NCBI RefSeq assembly: GCF_000016985.1
Contig: NC_009633.1
Location: 2,461,539 to 2,525,538 of the forward strand
Direction of reading: 5' to 3'
DNA from: Alkaliphilus metalliredigens QYMF
GTDB lineage: Bacteria; Bacillota; Clostridia; Peptostreptococcales; Natronincolaceae
DNA: 64,000 nucleotides
Positions 15,623-34,444 of this stretch are shown here, in pieces (the stretch's first letter is position 1; each line of letters begins with the position of its first letter). The notes below the pieces were generated by a model. That model saw nothing but the letters and a program-made list of their open reading frames with translations. It searched no databases and had not been told where the DNA came from. Position numbers and translations under genes: made by a program.

Positions 15623-15648
15623 TTGCTTTGTATGAGGTGGTGATTGAG

Positions 15649-15831: not shown

Positions 15832-16112
15832 TGAGCATATTCTTAAATGAAGTAAAACATCACTTGAGGATTGACTTTGATGAAGATGACTCTTATTTAG
15901 AGATTCTTATTTCTGCTGCAGAACAATTTATGCATAATGCCACGGGTAAGAGTTTTCATGAAACAAATAAATTAGCAAAAACCATATGCATGATGATAGT
16001 GGCAGATCTATATGAAAACAGAAATATGACCGCTGACAAAGTAGGTCAAACTACTAAGAATCTTGTTAATATGATGCTGATTCAATTGAGCTATGGAAGT
16101 GATCAGGAATGA
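15831..16112 (+). CDS. Head-tail connector, HK97 gp6-like (93 aa)
   Basis: The N-terminus FLNEVKHHLRIDFDEDDSYL, then LISAAEQFMHNATGK, is the classic gp6-like adaptor that sits beneath the portal. It is all-helical and of normal length. Start overlaps the previous stop (TAATG) and its end overlaps the next gene by four bases. Confidence 0.85.
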   Translation: MSIFLNEVKHHLRIDFDEDDSYLEILISAAEQFMHNATGKSFHETNKLAKTICMMIVADLYENRNMTADKVGQTTKNLVNMMLIQLSYGSDQE

Positions 16113-16869: not shown

Positions 16870-16873
16870 TGGA

Positions 16874-17293: not shown

Positions 17294-17299
17294 TGATAA

Positions 17300-18355: not shown

Positions 18356-18370
18356 GAAGGGATGATATAG

Positions 18371-18814: not shown

Positions 18815-18816
18815 AC

Positions 18817-19224: not shown

Positions 19225-19264
19225 TAAGTAGTGATGGAGAGTTATATTTTATTCATCACTACTT
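19215..19264 (+). promoter_or_regulatory. -1 ribosomal frameshift site with stimulatory hairpin
   Basis: The heptamer A AAA AAC (19215-19221) is in the correct phase of the xkdN frame, directly before its stop codon. Four bases later an 11-bp perfect stem (19226-19236 with 19254-19264, 17-base loop) follows. A -1 slip joins xkdN to a 52-codon frame ending at TGA 19379 and makes a 187-residue fusion, equivalent to lambda G-GT. Confidence 0.85.
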
Positions 19265-19379
19265 ACAAAAGGGTTTTGAAATAGACCATTTAATCAATCT
19301 TTCATGGGTTGAGCGACGATTTATGATGGCCAGTATGGAAATATATAAAGAAGAATTACAGGCAGGGTTGCAAATATGA
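19222..19379 (+). CDS. Frameshift extension of the tail assembly chaperone (GT-like part)
   Basis: An open frame of 52 codons in the -1 frame, starting CTA-ATA-AGT after the slip. It contains GELYFIHHYLQKGFEIDHL and WVERRFMMASMEIYKEEL, a pattern known from downstream tail-chaperone parts (LSxxEKxFMxASM-like). It has no start codon or ribosome site of its own, which fits expression only as a fusion with XkdN. The T part would contact tape-measure and tube proteins. Confidence 0.8.
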
Positions 19380-19410
19380 TCCTGTCTTATTCTTATAGGT
19401 AGGTGAAACT

Positions 19411-19869
19411 ATGGCTGCTAAAAGTATAAAGGCGATATTAACTCTTAATGATAAGAATTTTTCGTCTAACATGAAGAAGGCATCGGGTGGAGTTAATGGC
19501 TTTAATAAAAGACTGAAACATAGTGGGAACCAAGTTACGAAGTTTAGAAAGAACACAGTAAATAGCTTTAAAAGAGTGGCTAAAAGCGCTGTGGGGTTAG
19601 CGGCTGCTTATGTAGGATTTAGAGCCTTGTCTAGAGGGATAAGTAGTAGTGTTGAAGCTGCTAAGGCACAGATAGATGCAGAAACGAAGTTGATTGCAGT
19701 AATGAAAAATACAAAAGGAATGACAGAACAAAATGCGCAAAGTGTGATTAAATACGCTGGTGAATTACAGAAGGTTGGTGTAATTGGTGATGAAGTAGCC
19801 TTATCAGGTGTACAACAGTTAGCTACATATCAATTACAAGAGAAGACACTTAAAAAACTAATGCCGGGT
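19411..19869 (+). CDS. Tape-measure protein, exon 1 (residues 1-153)
   Basis: ATG 19411 follows TAGGTAGGTG. Exon 1 encodes the basic N-terminus and a helical segment (RALSRGISSSVEAAKAQIDA), ending at GGT 19867-19869 in LKKLMPG. Unspliced, the frame would stop at 19908 after 12 foreign residues. Joining base 19869 to 21155 gives LMPG-MNDLLAQQKG in frame and a 632-residue protein. The tape measure sets tail length and threads into the host envelope. Confidence 0.9.
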
Positions 19870-21154
19870 AAACATTCTTGCCCAGCTACTGAGAAATTGG
19901 TAGCTTAAAACAGAACGTGAATTCAGGGAAAATCTAAGTTTATATTAATTTAACAAATCCTTTAGTTATAATTTTATTTCAAATAGTGTAAAGGGTGGAT
20001 AAGATGCCAAAGAAAATTACTTATGATTTTGTGAAAAAGTATGTTCTTGAAAATAGTAATTGTCAGCTAATGAGTAATGACTATATTAATAATAGTTCTA
20101 AACTAGAATTTAAATGTGGATGTGGGAATATCTTCGAAACTTCTTTTGCAAAGTTTAAGGATAGAAAAAAAAGACAATGCAATGAATGTGGATTTGCTTT
20201 AAGGGGACAGTATCAAAGTAAAACTCCTGAAGAATTCAGAGAAGAAGTTCAAAATATTGTAGGAAATGAATATATAGTGCTAGGATATTATTCTGGAGCT
20301 GTAGAAAAAATTAAATTTAGGCATAATTCGTGTGGTAATGAATATCTAGCAGCACCACATGATTTTTTATCAGGCAAAAGATGCCCTAAATGCAGAAGGC
20401 CTAGATACAACACTACCACAGATGAGTTCAAAAAAATTATCAAAGAACTAACCAATGGAGAGTATGATGTGGTTGGCGAATATACGAGTTCACATACACA
20501 TATAAGGTTAAAACATAATCTTTGTGGAACGGAATATAAAGTAACTCCAAATAATTTTACATCTCATGGTCGAAGATGTCCTAACTATGACTGCCATATA
20601 AGAAGAGTAGGAGGGATAAATCACCACGCTTATAATCCAGATTTAACTGATGAAGAAAGAATAAATCGCAGAGATTTAAAAGAAAATATTAAATGGCGCA
20701 AATCAGTTTATAGAAAAGATGGGTATAAGTGTGTTTCTTGTGGTGATGATCAAGGAAGAAATCTTGTAGCACATCATCTAGATGGATATAACTGGTGTGT
20801 AGAAAAGAGATTTGATGTGAAAAATGGAGTCACTTTATGTGAAATATGTCATAAGGCTTTCCACCATAATTATGGATATGGAAATAATACCAAAGAGCAA
20901 TTTCAAGAATTCATAAGTAGAAATTAATATAAATATGACGATCCTGAGCCAAGTCATTGAGGAAACTCATGAAAGGTGCAGAGACTAGATAAAGTAAGCT
21001 AAGTAAAAAGACATTATCGGGTGTCTTTTTTATATGCTGAAATATCCATGAGCGCGTTCTACTCTAACAGTTAAAGCTGAGGGTAATGATATAGTCCGAA
21101 CTTATAGGAAACTGTAAGAGGTATAGGATAAAGAGCCTATGCGATAACAAATTG
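19870..21154 (+). mobile_element. Group I intron in the tape-measure gene (1285 nt)
   Basis: Exon 1 ends with T (19869) and the intron ends with G (21154), as group I introns require. P1 is visible: exon GGGT (19866-19869) pairs with GCCC (19880-19883), giving the U-G pair at the splice site. The P7 halves GACTA (20983-20987) and TAGTC (21092-21096) lie in typical contexts, GCAGAGACTAGAT and GATATAGTCCGAAC. CCTGAGCCAAG near 20943 fits the P4 region. The intron carries an HNH endonuclease gene. Confidence 0.93.
20004..20927 (+). CDS. Intron-encoded HNH homing endonuclease (307 aa)
   Basis: ATG 20004 follows AAAGGGTGG. The N-terminal two thirds hold repeated Cys-rich modules (FKCGCGNIFET, QCNECG, RCPKCRRP, RCPNYDCH), probably zinc-finger DNA-binding units. 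The C-terminus is an HNH domain (WRKSVYRKDGYKCVSCG, VAHHLDGYNW, LCEICHKAFHHNYG). It would cut intronless tape-measure genes and spread the intron. The gene is AT-rich, lies wholly inside the intron, and ends shortly before the P4-P7 core. Confidence 0.9.
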   Translation: MPKKITYDFVKKYVLENSNCQLMSNDYINNSSKLEFKCGCGNIFETSFAKFKDRKKRQCNECGFALRGQYQSKTPEEFREEVQNIVGNEYIVLGYYSGAVEKIKFRHNSCGNEYLAAPHDFLSGKRCPKCRRPRYNTTTDEFKKIIKELTNGEYDVVGEYTSSHTHIRLKHNLCGTEYKVTPNNFTSHGRRCPNYDCHIRRVGGINHHAYNPDLTDEERINRRDLKENIKWRKSVYRKDGYKCVSCGDDQGRNLVAHHLDGYNWCVEKRFDVKNGVTLCEICHKAFHHNYGYGNNTKEQFQEFISRN

Positions 21155-22594
21155 ATGAATGATCTTCTAGCCCAGCAAAAAGGGCTTAATGCAACTCAAC
21201 AAGATTCAGTAAATATAGGTAATATGATTGGTAAGGTTATGAATGGTCAAGTAGGTGCATTAAGTAGAGCTGGTATTAACTTTACTAAAGCACAGGAGCA
21301 AATATTAAAATATGGTACCGAAACTGAGAAGGCTGCAACATTAGCAGAGGTACTGGAAATGAATGTAGGTGGGGTTAATAAGGCCTTAGCTGAAACAGAT
21401 CAAGGTAAAATTCAAAACATGACAAATGCTTGGAGTGATTATAAAGAAGAGATCGGTAGAAGGATATTACCACTTCAAGGTAAGTTTGCAGGTTGGTTTG
21501 CTAAAAAGATACCAGGCATACAGTCGATAGTTGTTAGAGCAATAGACCGAGGAGTTATGGCTTTTGATAATGTAGGTAACAAAGTAGACTTTGTAACAGC
21601 TAAAATGAAAGGCATTAAGAAATGGGGGGTAGATGCTTGGAGTAACATTAAAGGTGTGGTAGATGAAAATGCAGGAACCTTAGAAAAAGTAACAGGTGTA
21701 CTTAACCATATGGGACAAGGCATTATAGGTATTAAGGATAAATTTGTAGATGCTTTTAAAAACGAAGGTGCTAGTTGGTTTAAGGATGAAGCCCTGCCGG
21801 CTATAACACAAGGGGTATTAGGTGTTCTTGACGGTGCCACAGATCTATATAACTTTGTAACTAAAAACTGGTCTAAATTTGAACCATTAATATTAGGGGT
21901 AGCGGGAGCAATCGCAACATATAAAGTAGCCGTAATAACTACTACAGCCGTGACTAAGACTGCCACTATAGTAACCAATGGAATGGCTTTAGCACAAGGA
22001 GGTTTAAATGCAGTAATGAACATGAGTCCTATTGGTTGGCTAGCACTTGGAATAGGAGCTCTTATCACAGTAGGGATTGCTCTTTATAAAAACTGGGATA
22101 CCATAAAATACAAGGCATCTGAACTAGGCAAAGGAATTAAAGATAGTTTCGCTCCTATAGGAGATTTCTTTAGTGGTCTATGGGGAGGCGTAGAGTCCGG
22201 ATTTAAGGGTTTTATAAACTTCTTTATAGATGGAATAAACACAGTGGTCAGTGGAGTAAATTCTATAAAATTTGATGTCCCTGATTGGATTCCTAAGTTT
22301 GGAGGAAAGTCGTTTGGTATTAACATACCCCAAATACCCGAGTTTGCTCTAGGGACATCTTATTTTAAAGGTGGAATGGCTCGTATTAATGAGCGTGGTG
22401 GGGAAATTGTTAATCTTCCTAATGGGTCACAAGTGATTCCAGCTGATAAGTCACAACAAATAATAAATAGAGATAATTCTAAGATAGAAGTAAAAGTATA
22501 TATTCAAGGAAATGTAATAGGCAATGAAGAGTATGCTGAGTATGTAGGCAATACAGTAGTCAAGAAAGTTAAGTTGGCGTTAGCTAACAGTTAG
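21155..22594 (+). CDS. Tape-measure protein, exon 2 (residues 154-632)
   Basis: Continuation after the intron. It begins MNDLLAQQKGLNATQQDSVN and includes GALSRAGINFTKAQEQIL, typical of tail tape-measure proteins, then a hydrophobic stretch (LGVAGAIATYKVAVITTTAV, then SPIGWLALGIGALITVGIAL) likely to insert in the host membrane. The C-terminus has the conserved ERGGEIVNLPNGSQVIPADK motif. The TTG before it is the intron's last bases, not a start. The 632-residue total is short, suggesting a short tail. Confidence 0.9.
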   Translation: MNDLLAQQKGLNATQQDSVNIGNMIGKVMNGQVGALSRAGINFTKAQEQILKYGTETEKAATLAEVLEMNVGGVNKALAETDQGKIQNMTNAWSDYKEEIGRRILPLQGKFAGWFAKKIPGIQSIVVRAIDRGVMAFDNVGNKVDFVTAKMKGIKKWGVDAWSNIKGVVDENAGTLEKVTGVLNHMGQGIIGIKDKFVDAFKNEGASWFKDEALPAITQGVLGVLDGATDLYNFVTKNWSKFEPLILGVAGAIATYKVAVITTTAVTKTATIVTNGMALAQGGLNAVMNMSPIGWLALGIGALITVGIALYKNWDTIKYKASELGKGIKDSFAPIGDFFSGLWGGVESGFKGFINFFIDGINTVVSGVNSIKFDVPDWIPKFGGKSFGINIPQIPEFALGTSYFKGGMARINERGGEIVNLPNGSQVIPADKSQQIINRDNSKIEVKVYIQGNVIGNEEYAEYVGNTVVKKVKLALANS

Positions 22595-22604
22595 GAGGGA
22601 GCTA

Positions 22605-23021
22605 GTGGATATATTTTTGAGTATCAATAATAGAGAACAAGTCATTCAACTTCCCATAATACCAGAAGACTTTCAAGTTGAATTTAGCAACAACAATGAA
22701 ACATTTGCTACTATATCCCAAGGAGATTTGAATCTAATTGGTAATCAAGGTCTCAAATCAATTATAATTGAGACCTTTTTTCCAAACAAAGAATATCCAT
22801 ATGCTAAATCTAAAGAGTTTACTGGTGACGAGTTTGTTGAGCTAATGTTTCAATGGATAGAAAGAAAAGTACCTATTCGTGTTGTAATAACAAATAATAA
22901 TGGGAAAGAGGTAGTAAATCTACCGGTAACAATAGATAGTTTTAACCAGGGCTATGATAGAACTGGAGATATTGGTTATTTTCTTGGTTTAAGGCAATTT
23001 AGATTTGTTAGGGTGAATTAA
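22605..23021 (+). CDS. Tail protein, XkdP-like (138 aa)
   Basis: GTG 22605 follows AGGAGGG. The N-terminal part (EQVIQLPIIPEDFQVEFSNN) and LRQFRFVRV end match the first domain of XkdP; no LysM domain is present, so it is shorter than PBSX XkdP. It probably links tube and baseplate. A terminator-like hairpin lies inside the coding region at 22749. Confidence 0.75.
   Translation: MDIFLSINNREQVIQLPIIPEDFQVEFSNNNETFATISQGDLNLIGNQGLKSIIIETFFPNKEYPYAKSKEFTGDEFVELMFQWIERKVPIRVVITNNNGKEVVNLPVTIDSFNQGYDRTGDIGYFLGLRQFRFVRVN
22749..22781 (+). terminator. Terminator-like hairpin inside the xkdP-like gene
   Basis: GGTCTCAA (22749-22756) and TTGAGACC (22768-22775) form a perfect 8-bp stem, immediately followed by six T. 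It has the exact form of an intrinsic terminator, yet lies about 145 bases inside a coding region. It could reduce expression of the downstream baseplate genes when translation is slow. Confidence 0.6.
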
Positions 23022-23022
23022 G

Positions 23023-24009
23023 ATGCATGTGGTTTCGGTATATAACCAAAATGGGATGAAGAAGAGTATCACAGCACTAGTGGGAAATTTAACTTGGACG
23101 AGCCATGAAAGTACTTTAGGTGTGCAGCTGAATTTTGACACTGCATATAACAATATAATTTATTTCCCCAAGGATTTAATTGATATTGGTGATGTTGTGG
23201 TATTAAGTAATGATGGTAATGAAGTTTTTAGAGGAATCATCGTCACAGAAGAAATAAATGGTGAGTTCTCAAGGCACTATATAGCCTTTGACTATGCTTT
23301 TTATCTTAACAAGTCAAAGGGGGTATATCAGTTTAATGGTATTCAGGCATCTAAAGCTATAGAGCAACTATTGAATGATCTTAATATACCAGTTGCTAAT
23401 ATAGCAAGTATTACTACAATCATAAACCATATTTATTTTGATAAAGTAATAAGTGATATTATAAAAGATATTCTCCTGCAGGCTACACAGGAAACGGGCC
23501 AAAGATATAGGCTAGAGATGAGGGCAGGCAAGTTATATATCGAAAATGAAGTTGATTTGATTGTAAATGCTACTTTTAAGCTGGCCGAAAACATTGAATC
23601 TTATAATGTAACCACTGCAATTAGCAATCTAAGCAGGAGAAGATCCATAGAGGAAATGAAGAATAGTATTATAATCATATCAGAGAATGGAGAAAGCATA
23701 AAAACTGTTGGTTCAGCAAAAGAAAGTACATCTATACAAAAATATGGTTTGTTACAAGAAGTACAAAGTGTGGATGAAAAGGATATATCACAGGCTAATC
23801 ATATAGCCAGGACACTTTTAAAGGACTTAAATAAAATATTTGAAGACAACAGTGTAGAACTCATTGGAAATGACAGTGTTAGAGCTGGCAGAATAATAAA
23901 CATATCTGAGCCTATCACAGGAATGAATGGGCAATACAAAATTAAGTCCTGTACTCATAATGTTAGTAATGGCATACATAAAATGTCATTGGATTTGGGG
24001 GTGTTATAG
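23023..24009 (+). CDS. xkdQ: Baseplate hub protein, XkdQ/YqbQ-like (328 aa)
   Basis: ATG 23023 starts one base after the previous stop. The order of domains (early LTWTSHESTLGVQLNFD, DVVVLSNDGNEVFRGIIV, later LLQEVQSVDEKDISQANHIA and the HNVSNGIHKMSLDLGV end) matches XkdQ, a gpD/gp27-type hub of contractile tails. It sits at the central axis of the baseplate. Length is normal. Confidence 0.85.
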   Translation: MHVVSVYNQNGMKKSITALVGNLTWTSHESTLGVQLNFDTAYNNIIYFPKDLIDIGDVVVLSNDGNEVFRGIIVTEEINGEFSRHYIAFDYAFYLNKSKGVYQFNGIQASKAIEQLLNDLNIPVANIASITTIINHIYFDKVISDIIKDILLQATQETGQRYRLEMRAGKLYIENEVDLIVNATFKLAENIESYNVTTAISNLSRRRSIEEMKNSIIIISENGESIKTVGSAKESTSIQKYGLLQEVQSVDEKDISQANHIARTLLKDLNKIFEDNSVELIGNDSVRAGRIINISEPITGMNGQYKIKSCTHNVSNGIHKMSLDLGVL

Positions 24010-24399
24010 ATGAATGGCATTAAAGAGTTAGCTGAAATGTTTAAAGAAAGAGAGAATAAGGCTTACATGGGTCCCCAAATAGGAAAGGTGATAACTCCTC
24101 CTCCTAATATCAAGGTATCACTGGGAGATAAAATTATATTGGAGAAGAACAGATTAATTATAGCTGCCCACGTATTATCAGGTTATACAAGGCAATTTCA
24201 AGGTCAAAGTAACGGAACGATTACTACTAAAACACCACCTAGTCCAGTGAGCTATAGTGAATACACAGTATTAGAAGATTTAAACCATGCTGGAGAAATC
24301 GTCTATACTGATACATTAAAAACTGGTGATGAAGTAATTCTATTGCCTAGTACCGATGAGCAAAAATATATTATTATAGATAAGGCGGTGAGATTATAG
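24010..24399 (+). CDS. xkdR: Baseplate protein, DUF2577/XkdR-like (129 aa)
   Basis: It follows XkdQ directly and precedes the gp25-like gene, the PBSX order. The pattern NIKVSLGDKIILEKNRLIIA and GDEVILLPSTDEQKYIIIDK fits DUF2577, an OB-like fold of baseplate hubs. Starts ATG 24010 immediately after the XkdQ stop. Confidence 0.8.
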   Translation: MNGIKELAEMFKERENKAYMGPQIGKVITPPPNIKVSLGDKIILEKNRLIIAAHVLSGYTRQFQGQSNGTITTKTPPSPVSYSEYTVLEDLNHAGEIVYTDTLKTGDEVILLPSTDEQKYIIIDKAVRL

Positions 24400-24839
24400 T
24401 GCTGCCACAAATAGCAAACTTAGAAATCGATGGTGATGATCAACAACAGACTACTCAAATAGGGAAGTCTTTTTTATTTGATTTCAATAAGGGTGAATTT
24501 GTGTTTAAGGATGGAAAGTTAGTGCCAGTAGAAGGAATTGAAGCTTTAAAAGTATGGATTGAAAAGACACTGAGAACAGAAAAGTTTAGATTTAAAGTTT
24601 ATGAAGGCACGGAGTATGGTGTCACCGTTGAAGATCTAATTATTGGCCATAACTATCCTATCAGTTTTGCTGAGTCAGAGGTCAAAAGAGAGGTATCCGA
24701 AGCTCTAGGTACTCACCCGTGGATAGAACGCTTGGTGGATTGGGGCTTAGAAAGAGAAAAATCAATACTTAAGATATCCTTTAGAGTGATTTTAGTAAAT
24801 GGAAATTCATTTGATCAGGTGGTGAATTACAATGTATGA
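24399..24839 (+). CDS. xkdS: Baseplate wedge protein, DUF2634/XkdS-like (146 aa)
   Basis: GTG 24399 follows AAGGCGGTGAG. The core GIEALKVWIEKTLRTEKFRF then YEGTEYGVTVEDLI is the DUF2634 (XkdS, gp25-like) pattern. This wedge component starts sheath assembly. Overlaps the next gene by eight bases. Confidence 0.85.
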   Translation: MLPQIANLEIDGDDQQQTTQIGKSFLFDFNKGEFVFKDGKLVPVEGIEALKVWIEKTLRTEKFRFKVYEGTEYGVTVEDLIIGHNYPISFAESEVKREVSEALGTHPWIERLVDWGLEREKSILKISFRVILVNGNSFDQVVNYNV

Positions 24840-25899
24840 AGGTAAGACAAAAGAGCAGATACATGAAGAGATGTTAGACCAGATATCTAAAAAATATGAT
24901 AAAACTCCTGGAGAGTTTATTTATGATGCCACTAAGCCCCCTGCAATTAAGCTTGAAGAGGTATATAAAGATTTAGATGACGTAATTGATAAATTGGATA
25001 TTGAAAATTTAAAAGGTGAAGAACTAGAAAGATTTGTATATCAAAGGACAGGTATTGGACGAAAAAAGGCTACCTATTCTATCGGGAGGGTGTTAGCAAA
25101 GGGTAATGGTAGCGTTAATGCAGGCAATCTATTTGAAACGGAAGGTGGTATACAGTTTGAAGCTGTTCAAGGGGTAATAATTAATGGTGAAGGATACGTG
25201 AACATAAAATGTGCTGTTGCTGGAGGTGTTGGAAATGTGCCAGCTAATCAAATTAAATTCATGCCTGTGACCATTTCAGGAATCAATGAAGTGGTAAATA
25301 CTGAGGCAACAACAGGTGGTTTTGAAGCTGAAACAGACCAAGCACTTCTTCAAAGATATTATGAGAGAAGACAAACACCAGCCACAAGTGGGAATAAGGC
25401 TCATTATAAAAATTGGGCAAAAGAGGTTCCTGGTGTGGGCGATGCAAAAGTTTTCTCTTTGTGGAATGGCGATAATACTGTAAAGGTAATTTTAATTGAT
25501 GCTGAAAAGCAACCCGCAAGTCTGGAGTTAATCGAAATGGTACAAGAGTACATTGATCCAGGTATGACAGGTTTAGGTGAAGGAGAGGCGCCAATAGGCG
25601 CATATTGCACAATAAGTAGTGCTATTGGTAAAGAAATTAATATTTCATTTACAGCTATTAAGGATCCTTCTGTATCTGATTTAGAAAGACAGCAAAGTGT
25701 AGAGAAAAACATCAATAATTATCTTAAAGAAATAGCCTTTGTAGAGAACTATGTAAGTTATGGGATTGTTGGGAGTTTGATATTACAATCAGAAGGAATT
25801 GAGGATTATAGTGACTTAGTAATTAATGATGGGAGTAGTAATATTTCAATAGGAAATGAAGAGGTAGCAATATTAGGGAGTGTGGTAATCAATGAGTAA
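24832..25899 (+). CDS. xkdT: Baseplate J-like protein, XkdT (355 aa)
   Basis: A wedge protein of contractile tails (gpJ/gp6 family). Seen: TGIGRKKATYSIGRVLAKGN, VAGGVGNVPANQIKFMP, GGFEAETDQALLQRYYERRQ, and WAKEVPGVGDAKVFSLWNGD, all landmarks of baseplate J-like proteins. Length is normal and its end overlaps XkdU by eight bases. Confidence 0.9.
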   Translation: MYEGKTKEQIHEEMLDQISKKYDKTPGEFIYDATKPPAIKLEEVYKDLDDVIDKLDIENLKGEELERFVYQRTGIGRKKATYSIGRVLAKGNGSVNAGNLFETEGGIQFEAVQGVIINGEGYVNIKCAVAGGVGNVPANQIKFMPVTISGINEVVNTEATTGGFEAETDQALLQRYYERRQTPATSGNKAHYKNWAKEVPGVGDAKVFSLWNGDNTVKVILIDAEKQPASLELIEMVQEYIDPGMTGLGEGEAPIGAYCTISSAIGKEINISFTAIKDPSVSDLERQQSVEKNINNYLKEIAFVENYVSYGIVGSLILQSEGIEDYSDLVINDGSSNISIGNEEVAILGSVVINE

Positions 25900-26425
25900 T
25901 CAAATGATTACCTATCTCCCCTTATTTATGCGAAAATCGAAGATCTATAATGAGATATTCGATGCTGAAGAACATCAATTTGAGTATGTTGAAGCAGATA
26001 TTAAGGACATAAGAAAGCAATTAGATATCGATACTGCAACATGGGGATTAGCTATCTATGAAAAAGAGCTAAAGATAAAAATTGATTTATCGAAACCATT
26101 ATCAGAGAGAAGATCCGTGATTAAGTCCAAGGAGAGGGGCACAGGGAAAGTTGATGCAGCTCTTATTAAAGTGGTAGCAGATGCCTATACCAATGGAGAA
26201 GTTGATGTGCTATTTAATGGGAATATAAATATAAAATTCAATGGAGTTTTGGGGATTCCTCGGAACCTAAGCGATTTAGAAAATTCGCTAGAAGAGATTA
26301 AACCAGCCCATTTAGCTTTAGCTTATACATTTGCTTATCTGTTAATTAAAGATATTCATGGAGTCATGACGTTGAATGAACTCCAACAAACAAAACTTAA
26401 CAAATTTGCAGGAGGTGGTAGTTAA
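25892..26425 (+). CDS. xkdU: Baseplate/tail protein, DUF2313/XkdU (YmfQ)-like (177 aa)
   Basis: It begins MITYLPLFMRKSKIYNEIFD after two residues, as XkdU/YmfQ proteins do, and later has LSERRSVIKSKERGTGKVDA and EIKPAHLALAYTF, the conserved parts of the family. It connects the baseplate to fibres. Overlaps both neighbours by a few bases. Confidence 0.85.
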   Translation: MSNQMITYLPLFMRKSKIYNEIFDAEEHQFEYVEADIKDIRKQLDIDTATWGLAIYEKELKIKIDLSKPLSERRSVIKSKERGTGKVDAALIKVVADAYTNGEVDVLFNGNINIKFNGVLGIPRNLSDLENSLEEIKPAHLALAYTFAYLLIKDIHGVMTLNELQQTKLNKFAGGGS

Positions 26426-26697
26426 TGGCCAGTAATACACCTAATTTAGATTTATACAAAAAGGATCCAGTTCAAGATGGAGACGATACTTTTAATATTG
26501 AGACAATGTTGAATGAGAATTGGGATAAGATTGATGAAGGAATTGGTGACGCAGCTGAAAGCAAAACAGCTATTGATGCTCATAAAGCTGCAGCCATGCC
26601 TCACAAATTCATTGGAAGTGATGGCAAGGTTTATCGATGGGGATTAGGTCAACAGGGTGGGCAATTCGGTTTTATTTATGAGGAGGTGGTTGTATAA
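26425..26697 (+). CDS. Short tail fibre-associated protein (90 aa)
   Basis: ATG 26425 follows AGGAGGTGG. NTPNLDLYKKDPVQDGDDTF then NENWDKID is the motif often seen at the start of Firmicute phage tail fibre proteins; the C-terminus has FIGSDGKVYRWGLGQQGG. It may be a short baseplate-attachment module for the next fibre. Confidence 0.65.
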   Translation: MASNTPNLDLYKKDPVQDGDDTFNIETMLNENWDKIDEGIGDAAESKTAIDAHKAAAMPHKFIGSDGKVYRWGLGQQGGQFGFIYEEVVV

Positions 26698-27326
26698 TGG
26701 CTCAATTTCTACCATTGGCAGATAAGCCAACATTAGATCAAGCGAAATTCACGATTGACGAAGTTCTTGCAATACTGAATGCCAAACTTGATGCAGATGT
26801 ATCAAGCAGACAAGCAGGTGTATTTACTCAAACAATGGCAAACCGCTTGGATGCAGCAGTCTCTTCACGTCAAGCAAACTGGGGCGCAACAACCACACAT
26901 AGAGATAGAATTGACGCTTCAATTTCAAGTAGAGCAAGTCAACCAAGTGTAAACACTGTTAGTAATAATGTAGGTAGTAATTCTGACTCATCTAGTGCAA
27001 GTGGAAGTGTTCATGCTAAATTGAAGGAATTAAGGTCACTGGTTTTAAATAGTAGCGGAGGAATTAAGGTTCAAAGAGGAATTGCTAGTACGCCGACGAT
27101 CGACAATGACCCACACATAATAAATATCACAATTTCACCAGTAGTTCTTATCAAGTCATTTGTAGTACCTGCCACTATGATGATGGGTGTTGGTGGACCT
27201 TCTTCTGCAAATTTTTTAAAAGCTAACATGACTTTAACCTCAACAACAAATTTAAGGATAGAATTGTTTGGAGGAAATTGGTTGAGGGATAAAGTGTTTG
27301 CATGGCAAATAGTAGAATTTGAATAG
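26697..27326 (+). CDS. Tail fibre-like protein with VSSRQA repeats (209 aa)
   Basis: After MAQFLPLADKPTLDQAKF the protein has three spaced repeats, DADVSSRQAG, DAAVSSRQAN and DASISSRASQ, about 22 to 26 residues apart, typical of beta-helical fibre shafts. The C-terminal 80 residues may be a receptor-binding tip. It starts at the A of the previous stop. The repeats suggest evolution by duplication. Confidence 0.65.
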   Translation: MAQFLPLADKPTLDQAKFTIDEVLAILNAKLDADVSSRQAGVFTQTMANRLDAAVSSRQANWGATTTHRDRIDASISSRASQPSVNTVSNNVGSNSDSSSASGSVHAKLKELRSLVLNSSGGIKVQRGIASTPTIDNDPHIINITISPVVLIKSFVVPATMMMGVGGPSSANFLKANMTLTSTTNLRIELFGGNWLRDKVFAWQIVEFE

Positions 27327-27338
27327 GAGGAATATAAA

Positions 27339-27734
27339 ATGAAATATTATGCAGAATTAAATAAAAACAATATATGTGTCGGCGTATCGGTACTTAAGGA
27401 TACCGTGGAGTATCCTAATATGATAAAAACAGACGAGTATGACGAAACGTTACTCGGTAAAATATACAGAGGAGAAGCTACAGGTTTTACGGAATTAGAC
27501 TATCTAACTTTAGAGAATGAAAATAATCTCATTATTATAAAAGCCTACAATTATTTAAATGAGTTTCAAACAGAATACGAGGGTGAAATCTTGATTGACA
27601 TTGGAGGAACAACTTTAACTGAACAGATGACAAGTGGAATAATCACATTTGAATTTGAAAACACAACAGGGGAGCAAGTCACAATTCAGACTATTAATGA
27701 AAATCTTAGAAATGGGGTGCTTTTAATTGAGTAA
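27339..27734 (+). CDS. Tail fibre accessory-like protein (131 aa)
   Basis: ATG 27339 follows AGGAGGAAT. The beta-rich sequence (MKYYAELNKNNICVGVSVLK; later TGFTELDYLTLENENN) resembles small proteins encoded after fibres in PBSX-like elements. No enzymatic motif. Its end overlaps the next start by eight bases. Confidence 0.55.
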   Translation: MKYYAELNKNNICVGVSVLKDTVEYPNMIKTDEYDETLLGKIYRGEATGFTELDYLTLENENNLIIIKAYNYLNEFQTEYEGEILIDIGGTTLTEQMTSGIITFEFENTTGEQVTIQTINENLRNGVLLIE

Positions 27735-27906
27735 ACCAATAATTGAGAAGATAGGAAACAAAATTATCGTGAGGAAATCCCAAGAACCAGATCCACAACA
27801 ACTAATGGGTCAAATGCTAGTATCCCAATCTTTGAAAATTGAGGACCTAGAAGATAAACTAGATTTAATGGGGCAAATGTTGGTGGAACTATCATTAAAA
27901 GAATAG
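27727..27906 (+). CDS. Small phage protein after the fibre genes (59 aa)
   Basis: TTG 27727 overlaps the preceding gene. The product has two related segments, PQQLMGQMLVSQSLK and LDLMGQMLVELSLK, so it looks like an internal repeat of about 28 residues. It is helical and sits where PBSX carries small proteins before xkdX. Function unknown. Confidence 0.55.
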   Translation: MSKPIIEKIGNKIIVRKSQEPDPQQLMGQMLVSQSLKIEDLEDKLDLMGQMLVELSLKE

Positions 27907-27918
27907 GAGGGCGTGTTT

Positions 27919-28044
27919 ATGGATTATAACTTTTGGAAATCAGCCTACAAATTAGGATGGGCCAAGGAGTCACAGATTCAAAGAGCATTTGAAAGAGCAA
28001 TGATTACAGAAGAAGAAAAGAACCAGATATTAGACACCGAGTAG
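27919..28044 (+). CDS. xkdX: XkdX-family small phage protein (41 aa)
   Basis: ATG 27919 follows AGGAGGGCG. MDYNFWKSAYKLGWAKE then FERAMITEEEKNQIL is the signature of XkdX, a 40 to 50 residue protein always found between fibre and holin genes. Its function is unknown. Confidence 0.85.
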   Translation: MDYNFWKSAYKLGWAKESQIQRAFERAMITEEEKNQILDTE

Positions 28045-28090
28045 GTGTTATTTTTATGTAAAAAACCAATAAGTGAAAGGAGTAATGAAT

Positions 28091-28534
28091 ATGTCTATAA
28101 ATAACATAGGAAATATTATTAAAGCAACGTTGGCAACCATAGGAGGAACACTATCATATATTTTAGGAGGGTGGGATACGGCATTGCTGACACTAATGAT
28201 CATGATGGCTGTTGACTTTATAAGTGGATGGACTGTTGCTGCCGTATTCAAGAGTTCTCCTAAAACTGAAAAAGGAGCACTGGAGAGTAAAGCAGGATTA
28301 AAGGGATTACTGAGAAAGGGACAGGTGTTACTGATTGTACTGGTTGCCACTAGACTAGACATATTAATAGGGACAGGAGAATTGGTTAGAAATACAGCTA
28401 TAGTAGGGTTTTGTTTAAATGAATTAGTTAGCATTGTAGAGAACACTGGTTTGATGGGGGTACCACTACCTCCTATTATTACTCATGCTATTGATATTTT
28501 AGAAAAGAAGAATGATGAGGTGAAGATACGATGA
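28091..28534 (+). CDS. Phage holin, toxin-secretion/lysis (TcdE-like) family (147 aa)
   Basis: ATG 28091 is preferred for its spacing to AAAGGAG at 28076. Hydrophobic segments occur near residues 10-30, 34-50 and 85-115. The MMAVDFISGWTVAA segment and KTEKGALESKAGLKGLLRKG loop are the family signature. It should form the membrane holes that release the amidase encoded next; the two genes overlap by four bases. Confidence 0.85.
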   Translation: MSINNIGNIIKATLATIGGTLSYILGGWDTALLTLMIMMAVDFISGWTVAAVFKSSPKTEKGALESKAGLKGLLRKGQVLLIVLVATRLDILIGTGELVRNTAIVGFCLNELVSIVENTGLMGVPLPPIITHAIDILEKKNDEVKIR

Positions 28535-29253
28535 AAATAGTAATTGACAATGGTCATGGATTGAATACTCCTGGAAAGAGAACACCAATACTTCCTGATG
28601 GAACACAGATACGAGAATGGCAGTTCAACTTTCCCACAGCAAAGAAGCTAGGAGAGCTGTTAATACACAATGGATTTGACATAGTCTATGTCAGCGATAC
28701 AGAAGAGGATACCCCACTAGGAACAAGAACAACTCGAGCCAATGAGGCAGGAGCCGATATTTTCGTGTCGATTCACTACAACGCCTTTCAAGGTACATGG
28801 GGTACCCATGGGGGAATTGAAACCTATCACTATCCCAATTCAAGCAATGGGCAAAGCTTAGCTCAGGAAATACAAAGAGAGTTGATTCAAGAGACAGGGT
28901 TGAGGGATAGAGGAGTGAAGTCAGCCAACTTTCAAGTTTTACGAGAAACTGCTATTCCAGCTGTGCTTTGTGAATGTGGGTTCATGGATAACTTGGAAGA
29001 AGCTAGTTTGATGTTGGATGAAGCGTATCAATGGAAATGTGCCAGAGGAATAGCGAAAGGAATATGTAGTTATTTAGGTGTTGAGTACCAGGAACTAACT
29101 GAGAACGAAAATGAAGATTCACCACAATGGGCTATTGATGCTAGAGCATGGGCCATAGAGAATGATATTTCTGATGGTAGTCGGCCCAAGGATCCAGCTA
29201 CCAGAGAAGAGGTTTGGAGGATGTTGCAGAAGAATGCAGAAAGGGTGGATTAA
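28531..29253 (+). CDS. Phage endolysin, N-acetylmuramoyl-L-alanine amidase (Amidase_3, 240 aa)
   Basis: The zinc amidase domain spans residues 1-180: KIVIDNGHGLNTPGKR (here N-G-H for the usual DxGHG), EWQFN, FVSIHYNAFQ, and the catalytic Glu in PAVLCECGFMDN. The C-terminal 45 residues (PQWAIDARAWAIENDISDGS ...) look like a single SLH-type wall-anchoring motif. It cleaves the amide between muramic acid and L-alanine for lysis. Confidence 0.9.
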   Translation: MKIVIDNGHGLNTPGKRTPILPDGTQIREWQFNFPTAKKLGELLIHNGFDIVYVSDTEEDTPLGTRTTRANEAGADIFVSIHYNAFQGTWGTHGGIETYHYPNSSNGQSLAQEIQRELIQETGLRDRGVKSANFQVLRETAIPAVLCECGFMDNLEEASLMLDEAYQWKCARGIAKGICSYLGVEYQELTENENEDSPQWAIDARAWAIENDISDGSRPKDPATREEVWRMLQKNAERVD

Positions 29254-29270
29254 TTTCCACCTTTTTTTTT
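29244..29270 (+). terminator. Intrinsic terminator after the amidase gene
   Basis: GGTGGA and TCCACC form the stem, followed by nine T. The stem overlaps the last codons of the amidase gene. It marks the end of the late operon. Confidence 0.85.
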
Positions 29271-29275
29271 TGCTC

Positions 29276-29304
29276 TTTACTCCGAACGTACGTTCTGATA
29301 TAAT
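29276..29304 (+). promoter_or_regulatory. SOS (LexA/DinR-type) promoter
   Basis: CGAACGTACGTTCT (29283-29296) is a perfect GAAC-N4-GTTC box of Gram-positive LexA. It lies between a -35 candidate TTTACT (29276) and -10 TATAAT (29299), spacing 17, so LexA would block polymerase. It should drive the small genes at 29332 and 29430, possibly the methylase too. Confidence 0.8.
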
Positions 29305-29331
29305 GATACCAAAATATTCTAAGAAAAGGCG

Positions 29332-29424
29332 ATGAGAACTTTTGAAAAGGAAAATATATTAGCAGCTACTATTCCAAAATCAAAGGGAAGTCATAGTATA
29401 GAAAATACAAATGTAGGAGTGTAA
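29332..29424 (+). CDS. Small SOS-controlled frame (30 aa), possible recombinase remnant
   Basis: ATG 29332 has AAAAGG just upstream and is the first frame after the SOS promoter. The 30 residues (ENILAATIPKSKGSHSIENT then NVGV) resemble the residues that precede the YxRVS motif in large serine recombinases, which would make it a truncated N-terminus. It ends six bases before the next gene. Function unknown; the recombinase link is a weak resemblance. Confidence 0.4.
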   Translation: MRTFEKENILAATIPKSKGSHSIENTNVGV

Positions 29425-29429
29425 GGAGC

Positions 29430-29678
29430 ATGATGAAGGCTAACATTAAATTAACCGATAAAGATTTAATCACATACTTGGCAGCTAGAGGGTTTGAAAT
29501 TGTAGATACATATAAAGAAGCAAGTAAAGATCGAAGTATTGTATTATTCAAAAATAGTAAGGAATTAGATCGAGCAATTTTAGATTATGCAAATAAAAGG
29601 GGGGATATCAATATTGCAGATTATTTAGCCACAGAAAAAAGAGTTAAGAACCTATTTTATGCTAATAAAATGAGGTAA
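29430..29678 (+). CDS. DUF5659-like small protein (82 aa)
   Basis: ATG 29430 (or 29433) follows TAAGGAG. DKDLITYLAARGFEIVDTYK, then RSIVLFKNSKELDRAILDYA, fits DUF5659, a small alpha/beta domain found in phage and plasmid contexts with no known function. It probably shares the SOS promoter at 29276. Confidence 0.6.
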   Translation: MMKANIKLTDKDLITYLAARGFEIVDTYKEASKDRSIVLFKNSKELDRAILDYANKRGDINIADYLATEKRVKNLFYANKMR

Positions 29679-29745
29679 GATATCATAATTCAACTATCAG
29701 CTGTATCTTTCATCACTTAAAAATATACTTTAAGGAGTGATGGAA

Positions 29746-30507
29746 ATGTTAAAAAGTCCGTTATCATGGATGGGCGGTAAATATCGTCTCAGGAAACAAA
29801 TCATTGAATTAATACCAGAGCATACATGTTATGTAGAGATCTTTGGTGGAGCTGCTTGGGTCCTGTTTGGAAAGGAATCTTCAAAGGTAGAGGTATACAA
29901 TGATATTAATAGTGAATTGGTGAACTTCTTTAGGATATTGAAGTATCATGCAGAGGAATTCAAATCTTGGATTGAGAAGGACGTTGTAAGTAGAGAAATA
30001 TTTGAAGAATACCATGAGAGTCCATCTAAATACATGACCGATATTCAAAGAGCAGTGAGATTTTTTTATCTAATTAAATACAGCTTTGCTAGTAAAGGTG
30101 ATCACTTTGGATATGGAACGAACAAGGATCCTAATAAGGCAATTTTTAATACAGATTTTATCCAGGAAGTAAGAGGAAGACTAAAGCATTGTTATGTTGA
30201 GAACCTCTCCTTTGATCAATTGATAAATAAGTACGATAGGAAAGAGACTTTTTTCTTTTGTGATCCTCCTTATTATGAACTGACTCAGTATAAAGATAAG
30301 TTCTATAAAGAAGATCACCTGCACCTGGTTGAATTACTCAAAAATATAGAAGGAAAGTTTCTTGTAACTATAAATGACCATCCTGAGGTGAGGGAGTGGT
30401 ATAAGGGTTTTAATATGAAAAGTACTGAAGTGAATTATTCAGTAAGCAGAAATATTGAAGGGCGGAAGAATTATAAAGAGTTGATTATAACTAACTATGG
30501 ATTATAA
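29746..30507 (+). CDS. D12-class DNA adenine methylase (Dam-like, 253 aa)
   Basis: Transfers a methyl group from SAM to N6 of adenine. The SAM motif is near the N-terminus (LSWMGGKYRLRKQI then YVEIFGGAAWVLFGK), and the catalytic motif IV is FFFCDPPYYELTQY (DPPYY, about residue 178). Start ATG 29746 has AGGAG eight bases upstream. No cognate endonuclease is adjacent, so it is an orphan methylase that may protect the phage from host restriction. Confidence 0.85.
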   Translation: MLKSPLSWMGGKYRLRKQIIELIPEHTCYVEIFGGAAWVLFGKESSKVEVYNDINSELVNFFRILKYHAEEFKSWIEKDVVSREIFEEYHESPSKYMTDIQRAVRFFYLIKYSFASKGDHFGYGTNKDPNKAIFNTDFIQEVRGRLKHCYVENLSFDQLINKYDRKETFFFCDPPYYELTQYKDKFYKEDHLHLVELLKNIEGKFLVTINDHPEVREWYKGFNMKSTEVNYSVSRNIEGRKNYKELIITNYGL

Positions 30508-30528
30508 TAAATTAATTACTCAAAGTAT

Positions 30529-30557
30529 CGGGTTGGATTAAGTTCCAGCCTGTTTTT
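30529..30557 (+). terminator. Intrinsic terminator after the methylase gene
   Basis: CGGGTTGGA pairs with TTCCAGCCTG (9 bp with G-U pairs), followed by TTTTTAC. Confidence 0.75.
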
Positions 30558-30646
30558 ACTTTTTGTAACATTTTGTCGAGTGATTATTGAAGGATATTGT
30601 ACATTTATGGTAAATAATAGAATATATAGTGATGAGAGGAGTGATG

Positions 30647-31279
30647 ATGGTGAAAAAAGTATTGAAATTTTTAGTAATAGGCATTGTTGCGCTAGTAATT
30701 ATAGGAGCACTTTTAGGAGATGGCGAAGAAGGGACGGAGGAAATAGCTAAAGAGCCGAGTGTAGGAAGTGCTGCTATAGAAGTCGAAGAAGAGACCGAGA
30801 CAGAGAAAGAACCTGAAGCTGAAGTACAAAAGGCGAGTTATTTATTAGATAGTGGTATGTATAAAATAGGAACCGAACTGCCTGCTGGGGAGTACATGTT
30901 AGTAGCAGATGGAATGGCCTACTATGAAACGACTAAAGATTCTAAAGGAACTTTTGAGAGTATACTTACAAATGATAATTTCTTTGTTAATAGATACATT
31001 ACTGTGAAAGATGGAGAATATTTAAAGTTACAGAGTTGCAAACTATATGAACTTAATAATGTTCCTACGTTGGAAAAGCAAGAAATGTATAAAATAGGGT
31101 TAGACTTGGAGCCTGGAGAATATAAAGTTGCTGCAGAAGGCATGGGTTACATAGAAGTTTCAACAGATTCAAGAGGTGGATTAGAAAGTATAGTTACTAA
31201 TGATAACTTTGAAGGTGAAAAATATATTACGGTTCAAGATGGGCAATACTTAAAACTTATGAGTGCTGCTTTGGAATAA
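30647..31279 (+). CDS. Membrane-anchored protein with two tandem ~62-residue repeats (210 aa)
   Basis: ATG 30647 follows GAGAGGAG. One hydrophobic segment (VLKFLVIGIVALVIIGALLG) anchors it. An acidic linker (residues 27-68) leads to two related domains: MYKIGTELPAGEYMLVADGM ... FESILTNDNFF and MYKIGLDLEPGEYKVAAEGM ... LESIVTNDNFE, each ending ITV-D-GxYLKL. The repeat is known from secreted Firmicute proteins but its ligand is not. It is the last gene before the inferred prophage end and may be a lysogenic surface factor. Confidence 0.7.
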   Translation: MVKKVLKFLVIGIVALVIIGALLGDGEEGTEEIAKEPSVGSAAIEVEEETETEKEPEAEVQKASYLLDSGMYKIGTELPAGEYMLVADGMAYYETTKDSKGTFESILTNDNFFVNRYITVKDGEYLKLQSCKLYELNNVPTLEKQEMYKIGLDLEPGEYKVAAEGMGYIEVSTDSRGGLESIVTNDNFEGEKYITVQDGQYLKLMSAALE

Positions 31280-31476
31280 ATAATAAACAACATTGATACA
31301 GTTAGGGTAGCTTAATTGCTACCCTTCACCCTAGAGGATGGCTTATCATTGAAAGAGCATGCCAGTCTTAATATAGTCAACTGTGGGAACCAGTACGCTA
31401 AGCTTATAACTAAGTTACCCCAAACATAGAAAGAGGGTGTAAAACCCTTTTATCTGTATTATAATACTATTAATGA
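31280..31476. other. Non-coding prophage right end with two hairpins
   Basis: GGGTAGC/GCTACCC (31305-31324) and AGGGT/ACCCT followed by TTT (31434-31451) are terminator-like. A TATAAT occurs at 31460. No gene is visible. The host attachment site is expected near the right edge, where the downstream coat-like frame opens. Confidence 0.5.
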
Positions 31477-32385
31477 ATAGACAATCTAACTATCAGTAGT
31501 TTCGTACATATAGATGAACCATGCTGCATTGCTGATACAGGTTGTTTTTTTGATGGACATATAAAAAATGTAGTAGGAGAATGTATATTTGTAGACAAGG
31601 TATATGACTCAGTGGTTTTCAACCTACAGGGAATTCAAGCTGTATCAAAGGCACCTTTTGGAAGATTACCAATAGCAAAGTGTGGACCTAGATCAAGAAT
31701 CGTTGCCATTAGGGACATTAGGGCTCGAAAGTTTTTTAACCCCAAAAATATTAACGATTGTAAAAATCTGGATGTAACTCCTACTACAAATTTATCTGGT
31801 GCGGAATTTGTACTTGATGAAAGAGGAAATCCTGTCGTTGTACCTGGCCCTGCAGGACTATTACAGTATTTAATTTACACAGATACCAGTGATTGTGACG
31901 ACGAAGGCTTAGGAACACCAATCTTTGGAACACAGGAAATTCAAATTACAGGGAATGTATTTGTAGAAATTGATGTAGACTTTATTGATGCTCAAGGAAA
32001 TACCCAAATGGCTACATTGACAGGGTTAGTTCCTGTTAGCCAAACATTAACAAACTTCTTTGAATTATGTATGCCTTCAGTATTTGACTCTGCATTTTTA
32101 CCACAATTCACAGAGTTTTGTAATATCGCATTTGAAGCTAGATTAGCGACACAAAGTATCCAAAGAGACATTGCCTTCAATCCTGCAACTGGAGAAGTGT
32201 TTATTAATCTAATTATTGCTTTATGTTTAACCTGCGAAAAGAAAATCAAAGTACCTGTACAATTATGCGTATTGAGCACAGGCTTCTGTGAGCAAGTACC
32301 AAGACCTAGACCAATTTGTGGCGAATTTCCACCATTATTCCCACCTCAAGTAAATGTACCTTTTGTCAATCCACCAGATTGTTAA
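31477..32385 (+). CDS. Coat/exosporium-like protein, 5' end missing (at least 257 aa)
   Basis: The first possible start is GTG 31612, but the same frame is open from 31477 and clearly coding: HIDEPCCIADTGCFFDGHIK, then VVGECIFVDKVYDSV. ECI-VDKVY is shared with the coat-like protein at 37998. No ATG, GTG or TTG lies between the stop at 31474 and 31612, so the N-terminus has been separated, most simply by the prophage on the left. The later part is Cys- and Phe-rich (CNIAFEARLATQSI; LCLTCEKKIKVPVQLC), as in Clostridial spore surface proteins. The family role is inferred. Confidence 0.65.
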   Translation: MDNLTISSFVHIDEPCCIADTGCFFDGHIKNVVGECIFVDKVYDSVVFNLQGIQAVSKAPFGRLPIAKCGPRSRIVAIRDIRARKFFNPKNINDCKNLDVTPTTNLSGAEFVLDERGNPVVVPGPAGLLQYLIYTDTSDCDDEGLGTPIFGTQEIQITGNVFVEIDVDFIDAQGNTQMATLTGLVPVSQTLTNFFELCMPSVFDSAFLPQFTEFCNIAFEARLATQSIQRDIAFNPATGEVFINLIIALCLTCEKKIKVPVQLCVLSTGFCEQVPRPRPICGEFPPLFPPQVNVPFVNPPDC

Positions 32386-33248: not shown

Positions 33249-33397
33249 TTTATTTTTAAATTGTACTCTATGTTCAAGAGATTCCTAACAGCTTGATATG
33301 GAAGGTGATTAAAACCATACTTGCATTTCACAAATCAAATATATTTAAAAAAACATAAAAATACATTATAATAATGAAATAAGGGGAGATGAGATCT

Positions 33398-34444
33398 ATG
33401 AAAATGATAGACTTAAGAAGTGATACAGTCACACTGCCTAGTGAAAAAATGTTACAAGCCATTCAAGTAGCACAGCTGGGTGACGACGTCTATGGAGATG
33501 ATGTGACCACCAATGAATTAGAAGCACTGGCGGCAAATATAACAGGGAAAGAAGCAGGTCTTTTTGTTCCTACGGGAACAATGGGCAATCTAATAGCGGT
33601 GATGACACATACGAAACCAGGTCAAGAAATTATCTTAGAAGAAAGCTGCCATATCTATTTGTTTGAAGTGGGGGGCATTGCCAGAATTGCGGGGGTGCAA
33701 GCTAGACCGATTCAAGGGAGTGATGGGAAAATTTGCTGTGAAAAAATACAGAAGGCTATGAGAACAGAAAATATTCATTTTCCTGAAACCGGTTTAATTT
33801 GTTTGGAGAATACCCATAATATGGCCGGGGGAACAGTGGTACCATTGGAAAATATGAAGGAAATTTATGAGCTTGGACAAAGCATTGGTGTACCCATTCA
33901 TTTAGATGGGGCAAGGGTGTTCAATGCCGCTACCCACCTAGGGGTCCAAGTCAAAGAGATTGCTCAATATGTGGACTCTATGATGTTCTGCTTATCAAAA
34001 GGATTAGGAGCACCCATTGGAAGTATGCTTGTGGGAAGCAATACATTCATCAGTCAAGCGAGGAAATATAGAAAGATGTTAGGTGGAGGGATGAGACAAG
34101 TGGGTGTCATCGCTGCCCCAGGCCGAATTGCCATTGAAGAAATGGTAGAAAGGCTTGAACTGGACCATAAAAATGCTAAAAAACTAGCTGAGGGATTGAA
34201 TTCTATTAAGGGAGTCTCTGTAGAATTAAGTAAGGTTCACACAAACATTGTGAATGTAGATTTTTCTGAGACTGGATTGGCATGTACGGATATAGTAGAA
34301 AGTCTAAAGAAAAAGGGAATACTGGCCAATGTCCGTGGCCAACAAGAAATTAGATTTGTCACCCATAAGGATGTAACAACTGAAGAGATATCAAATACTA
34401 TCAAAGTCATTAAAGAAATGATAAAAGCGATTTCAATACAATAG
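33398..34444 (+). CDS. ltaE: Low-specificity L-threonine aldolase (348 aa)
   Basis: PLP enzyme that splits threonine or allo-threonine to glycine and acetaldehyde. It starts MKMIDLRSDTVTLPSEKM, the classic N-terminus; has DDVYGDDVTTNELE, a Gly-rich FVPTGTMGNL, HLDGARVFNA (PLP Asp and Arg), and the Schiff-base Lys in MFCLSKGLGAPIGS. ATG 33398 has GGGGAG ten bases upstream; an ATG at 33389 is too close. It lies 26 bases before rarA. Confidence 0.9.
   Translation: MKMIDLRSDTVTLPSEKMLQAIQVAQLGDDVYGDDVTTNELEALAANITGKEAGLFVPTGTMGNLIAVMTHTKPGQEIILEESCHIYLFEVGGIARIAGVQARPIQGSDGKICCEKIQKAMRTENIHFPETGLICLENTHNMAGGTVVPLENMKEIYELGQSIGVPIHLDGARVFNAATHLGVQVKEIAQYVDSMMFCLSKGLGAPIGSMLVGSNTFISQARKYRKMLGGGMRQVGVIAAPGRIAIEEMVERLELDHKNAKKLAEGLNSIKGVSVELSKVHTNIVNVDFSETGLACTDIVESLKKKGILANVRGQQEIRFVTHKDVTTEEISNTIKVIKEMIKAISIQ

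Follow-up and report, generated by a model that had tools for sequence, protein, structure and literature searches.

A 45,981-bp prophage divides a conserved gene of Alkaliphilus metalliredigens QYMF behind its first 15 codons, and the two pieces rejoin in frame to a protein, MTDNNNTIVAPLQIDEPCC..., of the form found in relatives. A second case of the same split was found in another genus, where a congener has an intact copy. In A. metalliredigens itself, sigK is divided by an element with a homologous recombinase, a homologous small protein and the same promoter motif. Mother-cell-timed excision probably rebuilds both the split gene and sigK, as with skin and SP-beta; there are no excision, transcription or spore data.

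Two pieces of one gene

The window (the whole stretch of 64,000 nucleotides that was analysed) lies on a chromosome consisting of a single contig of 4,929,566 bases (4.93 Mb). An earlier sequence-only reading of the window had described a coat-like frame that is open from 31477, has no start codon before 31612 and directly adjoins the end of a phage. These observations were confirmed. The frame is open through 32385, and its earliest ATG, GTG or TTG is the GTG at 31612. Its first part, 31477-31515, is phage att DNA and not part of the gene. To the left, the last phage ORF (30629-31279) is followed by non-coding DNA with a terminator-like hairpin at 31431-31451. Together with its reverse-strand counterpart, this hairpin makes two terminator-like sites in 31200-31700, compared with a mean of 0.2 in shuffled sequences. 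By eye, the N-terminus of the last phage ORF is hydrophobic; the ORF also matches the Rv1352/Rv1906c domain family.

The reading had placed the 5' piece of the gene beyond the left end of an integrated prophage. A search of 184 kb around the window with the upstream DNA of relatives located it at G000:2447028-2447072 (G000 being the present genome), outside the window and 46 kb to the left. It comprises a promoter (ACC-N16-CATATTGTA), a ribosome site, a TTG start and 15 codons in total, after which the sequence changes abruptly. The gene body is 45,981 bp away, across the prophage. The missing start codons, the integrase that the reading predicted and the core repeat are all present to the left of the window, and the left end of the prophage adjoins the missing start and not another gene. 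Joined at the core GA, the halves read MTDNNNTIVAPLQIDEPCCIADTGC, comparable to the sequence of relatives, e.g. MEKDQQFSVEAMQIDEPCCIANTGC.

Both prophage ends carry the core ATAGA(C/T)GA. Two other crossover positions were considered by reading. A crossover within TATA at the junction would leave four extra residues in the joined protein, and one within ATAT would give the joined frame a stop. Both were rejected. The core ATAGA(C/T)GA lies centrally in attP, recurs in the second case described below (G005) and yields the sequence of the relatives.

The 3' piece might instead be a dead gene, or one restarted at GTG 31612, with the insertion a recent accident without function. There is no start before 31612, a weak AAGG stands 11 bases ahead of the GTG, and a single insertion could be recent. 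However, the body (31516-32385) contains no stop or frameshift, a start at 31612 would drop the conserved Cys-Cys and ECIFVDKVY segments, and sigma-70-like patterns in 31200-31700 occur at chance level (3 versus 2.5). The relatives also contradict a late start. Among genome contigs, from Alkaliphilus, Anaerovirgula, Natronincola and others, 141 stretches encode a relative. The best 80 were kept, and their species overlap with those of our set of 60 genomes. In every one of the 80, an in-frame start codon precedes the conserved Cys-Cys segment and comes with a ribosome-binding-site-like stretch by a loose rule; the start at GTG 31612 was rejected on this basis. Of 30 loci inspected in the 60-genome set, 29 could be parsed (L036 could not); besides G000 and G005 these are 27 others, all with an in-frame Met before the Cys-Cys segment. 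We consider a dead or restarted gene highly improbable.

The prophage and its attachment sites

The features of the prophage, the divided gene and the sigK element are collected in Table 1.

Table 1. Coordinates of the features. Positions without a prefix are those of the window; G000 positions are those of the chromosome, L005 and L007 positions those of individual loci.
Feature	Position	Strand	Basis or remark
attL	G000:2447049-2447098 (L005:5511-5560)		core GA at 2447073
Prophage, left 14.5 kb	G000:2447073-2461538, before the window		att junctions
Large serine recombinase of prophage	L005:5553-7142		529 aa; resolvase, recombinase and zinc-ribbon domains (all three)
Prophage, right 31.5 kb	1..31515	+	att junctions; phage genes by PHROGs
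Promoter motif of RDF candidate	272..296	+	AATAGTACAATCCATTAATTACATA; sigma-E-like (ATA, 17 nt, CATA)
Candidate recombination directionality factor (RDF), 59 aa	320..499	+	46% identical to 59-aa protein of sigK element
Terminase large subunit	10486..12219	+	PHROG 9, E = 1.1e-113
Portal, head maturation protease, major head protein	12402..15586	+	PHROGs 12, 80, 10
Tail sheath (contractile tail)	17300..18355	+	PHROG 1480, E = 6e-139
Baseplate wedge subunit	24832..25899	+	PHROG 6
Endolysin	28531..29253	+	PHROG 435
Terminator-like hairpin just inside right end of prophage	31431..31451	+	pattern scan
attR	31492..31541	+	phage arm TCAGTAGTTTCGTACATATAGAT, core GA 31516-31517, then gene sequence ACCATGC...
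3' body of split gene (coat-like, spore-type)	31516..32385	+	identity to orthologues; no stop or frameshift
Right-hand neighbour	33389..34444	+	homologue downstream of intact gene in 10/80 relatives' loci
sigK, N-terminal piece	61924..62250 (G000:2523462-2523788)	+	TIGR02846 search; junction at 62239 or nearby
Large serine recombinase of sigK element	62259..63845	-	60% identical to prophage recombinase L005:5553-7142
sigK, C-terminal piece	G000:2527415-2527774 (L007:1877-2236)		TIGR02846 search

The ends of the prophage were mapped by the att junctions. Rejoined, these ends form a 50-bp attP in which 21 of 25 pairs are symmetric; among 50-mers sampled every 7 bases over 184 kb, the maximum was 20. 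The recombinase gene lies no more than 20 bp from the att core at L005:5535, beside attL. A sigma-70 scan in front of it gave one site, on the opposite strand; a TATAAT with a preceding TG is visible but remained below scoring. Ten prophage proteins were scanned (terminase, portal, protease, major head, sheath, baseplate wedge, tail protein, endolysin, HNH endonuclease and one unknown). Judged by its genes for packaging, head, tail and lysis, the element looks like a complete contractile-tailed prophage.

Relatives of the recombinase were also sought outside bacterial genomes. A single-sequence search of viral contigs gave 26 pattern matches, none of them a relative. A search of the same contigs with the recombinase alignment gave 127 loci, the best 80 of which are at most 52% identical. 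The recombinase matched 1233 phage records, the best-ranked at 41.8% identity. Two other regions of the prophage were recorded in passing. L005:13235-16683 encodes an AAA ATPase followed by an apparent subtilisin-type protease (by eye), possibly a defence pair. The protein at L005:8507-9142 is built from repeats of about 17 residues, AYDSFQENPDGTYVCGG.

Intact relatives and a second split gene

The split-gene protein was matched in 31 of 60 genomes, the present genome being included in both counts, as in all counts over 60 genomes below. Eighteen genomes of the family have a match; the gene body is 70-80% identical to its orthologue in 17 of them and 65% identical in the remaining one. The gene left of attL (375 aa) has a homologue in 58 of the 80 relatives' loci. 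In nearly all of the 40 rows listed this homologue is upstream of the gene, and in L136 it is downstream. The right-hand neighbour, which looks like a threonine aldolase, is found next to the intact gene less often (Table 1). Because homologous neighbours surround the intact gene in relatives, the prophage interrupts an otherwise conserved arrangement.

In a genome of the same family and another genus (G005), an element of 37,670 bp interrupts the orthologous gene at the identical codon. At E 1e-5, no DNA similarity between this element and the A. metalliredigens prophage was detected beyond the recombinase gene. The G005 recombinase is 70% identical to that of the A. metalliredigens prophage, and both fall into one tree group (support 100/99). 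From its size and recombinase the G005 element is inferred to be a prophage; its remaining genes are unannotated. The joined G005 protein starts MANNEDLNNGVLQIDEPCC, and the intact gene of the congener G019, a natural empty site, starts MANNEDLNIGVLQIDEPCC. Different phages have independently hit the same gene in these two genera. Comparison of the split copy of G005 with the intact one of G019 gave a dN/dS of 0.15 (20 synonymous and 11 amino-acid changes). Polarised by G016, two amino-acid changes fall on the split branch and five on the intact branch, with three unresolved. The split copies show no decay, and a recent insertion would give the same low dN/dS.

The product of the split gene

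No family in Pfam or NCBIfam matched the protein at E 0.001, so that no described coat family was found; at E 0.1, Pfam gave only DUF508, for one of 33 members. A PDB sequence search returned nothing usable and no solved relative. The AlphaFold model is predicted to be all-beta with middling confidence (mean pLDDT 75, pTM 0.63), and fold searches with it yielded nothing usable (Foldseek best E 0.009, VIA-align best Z 2.6). The promoter of the split gene has the form ACC-N16-CATAnnnTA, which fits the sigma-K rule of Clostridioides difficile (PMC3789822). The same pattern was present in 15 of 79 upstream regions of relatives overall and in 14 of 14 among the closest ones. On this evidence the gene is conserved and looks spore-specific, its sporulation role being inferred and a coat function unproven. 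The label "spore coat" in the sequence-only reading rests only on the sigma-K-type promoter. The gene at 37998, called a paralogue there, has only a short motif in common with the split gene (9 of 19 residues; E = 0.001 when only the two sequences are compared), and this claim remains weak.

The sigK element and a common candidate RDF

In this genome, the sigma-K model finds its best match in a full-length sigma factor that does not reach the curated cut-off, and sigK itself is present in two halves. The sequence-only reading had noted a sigK element 30 kb from the prophage's break; the sigK split is real, and the two breaks are 30.7 kb apart. The sigK element is 3,647 bp long. Joined at ATAGAAAA, the halves encode ...RCIENEILM... 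by reading. Across the 60 genomes, both halves of sigK were found apart in eight (in G039 on different contigs), and the N-terminal part alone in four more. Inside the A. metalliredigens element, L007:1248-1376 is a broken gene piece that looks like DNA polymerase IV. At G034:C3:271444-274155 (L061), the sigK halves are oppositely oriented with an RDF and a recombinase beside them, which represents an inversion or an assembly error.

Both elements of A. metalliredigens encode a 59-aa protein (Table 1), and 55 bp covering its promoter and start are 82% identical between them at the DNA level. NCBIfam contains no family for this protein. Its role as RDF is inferred, by analogy with SprB and CD1234 and from its position and the homology between the elements. 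Four such proteins, both of those in G000 and those of G005 and G034, were combined into a profile. It gave eight strong matches in seven of the 60 genomes, four of them the profile's own sources. The new ones lie between the sigK halves (G014), beside the C-terminal half of sigK (G040), next to a related recombinase (G045), and on contig C92 of G023, which also carries the far half of a split yunB. Six weaker matches had E values of 5.6e-4 or worse, and only that of G001, inside a yunB element, is backed by the promoter motif. For G004 and G015, whose yunB elements were sampled in part, the profile found nothing above threshold; in these elements the motif pointed to a similar small ORF further along.

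A promoter motif in front of the candidate RDF genes

The RDF genes are preceded by AATAG(T/G)ACA(A/T)T-N10-CATA, followed by a ribosome-binding site and the start. Among nine RDF homologues the motif is exact in five and near-exact in three, and it is absent in the strong homologue of G040. The exact motif occurs at only two places in the 4.93-Mb genome, each before an RDF candidate. With one mismatch allowed there are five more places, and the resulting total of seven is hardly higher than the five of the reversed control. The motif fits the C. difficile sigma-E rule (ATA, then CATA 17 bases on; PMC3789822). Its identity as a sigma-E promoter was assigned by eye and is inferred, as is expression in the mother cell; an overlapping SpoIIID site is no more than a guess.

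The variant WATAGTACAA-N11-CATA gave 33 matches in the 60 genomes compared with 11 for the reversed pattern. Nineteen of the 33 lie within 20 kb of one of 33 related recombinases, where 0.25 were expected (calculated with the DNA total rounded to 178 Mb; the listed genome sizes sum to 173). Six of the 33 places, five of them among the 19, had been used to derive the motif; without them, 14 of 27 are near a recombinase. A small ORF follows the variant at 20 places, 17 of which are near a recombinase. At 14 of the 27 new places, a closed ORF of 55-70 aa starts within 40 nt, compared with 2% of random places in the same loci; in eleven 20-kb loci the random rate was 0.7%. Thirteen places lack a small ORF; 11 of these are more than 20 kb from any related recombinase and look like chance matches.

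By eye, the small ORFs behind the motif fall into several families, so that the promoter is more conserved than the RDFs. Seemingly unrelated families are found, for example, at L330, L343 and L344 (G019, G029). The motif-bearing elements also sit in an ABC ATPase gene (G019, G029), which is not obviously related to sporulation, or at unknown sites. The promoter may therefore serve escape of the phage rather than repair of the gene.

Target genes of the recombinase clade

Thirty-three related recombinases were matched, and 32 loci were examined for what their C-terminal end abuts. The targets were sigK in ten (nine by BLAST, L077 by coordinates), yunB in four, the split gene in two (G005 by BLAST, G000 by reading), an ABC ATPase in three, an FAD protein in three (by reading), the region upstream of gerA in one, and others in nine (L081 without a readable flank). 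Ten genomes were checked for the sporulation gene yunB. It is in two pieces in G001, G004, G015 and G023 (the G023 pieces being on separate contigs) and whole in the remaining six; recombinases of the same clade lie at the breaks, e.g. L119 7729-9668 and G004:C1:2972780-2995515. In the tree, the prophage and G005 recombinases are joined first by the sigK recombinase of G000 (98/97), then by that of G014 (94/92). The yunB recombinases come next outward, with a weak enclosing fork (86/51). Because the recombinases of the split gene nest with those of sigK and yunB, jumps between spore genes within one clade appear likely from the tree. A third related recombinase of G000, 50% identical (L055:10885-14241; G000:1335885-1339241), abuts the 5' end of a gerA-type germination operon, and no gene was shown to be split by it.

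Same-family recombinases thus also sit in genes outside sporulation, which is what ordinary lysogeny would allow. A conserved gene that is silent during growth would then merely be the attachment site, off in lysogens, with excision only on lytic induction. The packaging, head, tail and lysis genes of the prophage suit this explanation. So does the RDF ORF, which lies on the phage plus strand, flanked by small ORFs that by eye resemble HTH proteins, and could be read from an early phage promoter. On the other hand, the RDF promoter motif is common to the sigK element, where excision in sporulation is expected to be essential, the same gene was hit independently in G005, and the split copies stay conserved. 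Ordinary lysogeny is possible, and in our view unlikely.

Comparison with known systems

The prophage resembles SP-beta in spsM of Bacillus subtilis, where a complete prophage splits a spore-envelope gene, a large serine recombinase lies beside the att site, and a 58-aa accessory protein, SprB, has a mother-cell promoter (PMC4191935). There growing cells produce the recombinase, and the timing depends on its small partner. The present case differs in its gene, its phage and its Clostridia host. In B. subtilis, SprA and the skin recombinase SpoIVCA are only 26% identical (PMC4191935), whereas the two elements studied here share a recombinase clade, an RDF and a promoter. In the skin element in sigK of C. 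difficile, the recombinase is likewise not sporulation-specific and is made in growth, with timing set by the RDF CD1234, also a small protein (72 aa), under sigma-E and SpoIIID (PMC5025042). Here the target gene is different and the phage looks complete.

The element yin in yabG of Clostridium botulinum is also phage-like, with a large serine recombinase, a split late mother-cell gene and a putative RDF with a sporulation promoter. Its gene and RDF differ from ours, and its RDF promoter was proposed to be sigma-K-dependent, whereas the present one is sigma-E-like (PMC10747680). In gin in gerE of Bacillus cereus, an element with serine recombinases splits a sporulation gene and is removed in mid-sporulation; unlike the present prophage, gin is not a phage and has three recombinases (PMC5595907). 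Among the literature matches listed, none described this split gene or a yunB in two pieces; most subscription journals were outside the search. The kind of arrangement is already known; the target gene and the putative excision cassette common to two elements are new.

Proposed sequence of events and significance

We favor excision in the mother cell. Through its large serine recombinase, a temperate phage would have inserted behind codon 15 of a conserved gene that has a sigma-K-type promoter. In growing cells, the recombinase by itself would hold the prophage in place, leaving the gene without a start. After asymmetric division, a mother-cell promoter of the sigma-E type would drive the 59-aa RDF, which would turn the recombinase to excision. 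Because the sigK element has the same promoter and a homologous RDF, sigK and the split gene would be rebuilt in the same time window, and sigma-K would then transcribe the rebuilt gene, whose protein is inferred to act in the spore. The spore would inherit a chromosome with both elements still in place, the forespore chromosome being the germ line. The outcome would be a free ride for the phage without loss to the host. The developmental switch proposed in the sequence-only reading gains support from the common RDF candidate and the sporulation-type promoter, but without excision data it has not been demonstrated.

Few genes are known in which excision of a prophage acts as a developmental switch, and the present case adds a new target. 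The promoter motif together with a small ORF provides a signature of the timing step that can be searched for in any Clostridia genome. Because a single cell carries two elements whose recombinases and RDFs are homologous, RDF action across elements can be tested directly. A testable question is raised: do mobile elements, as a rule, adopt a mother-cell promoter of the host and so make the splitting of spore genes cost-free? More broadly, many serine-recombinase elements of this bacterial order may have come to share one sporulation-timed promoter cassette (WATAGTACAA-N11-CATA plus an RDF gene), with RDFs from several unrelated families. Phages and islands would then be excised under control of the mother cell, irrespective of the gene they occupy (sigK, yunB, the split gene, the ABC ATPase). 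This proposal rests on the position statistics of the motif, and we regard the case for and against it as evenly balanced. If it is true, genomes with two cassette elements would have co-timed rearrangements, and sporulation would be a general exit or silencing point for such mobile DNA.
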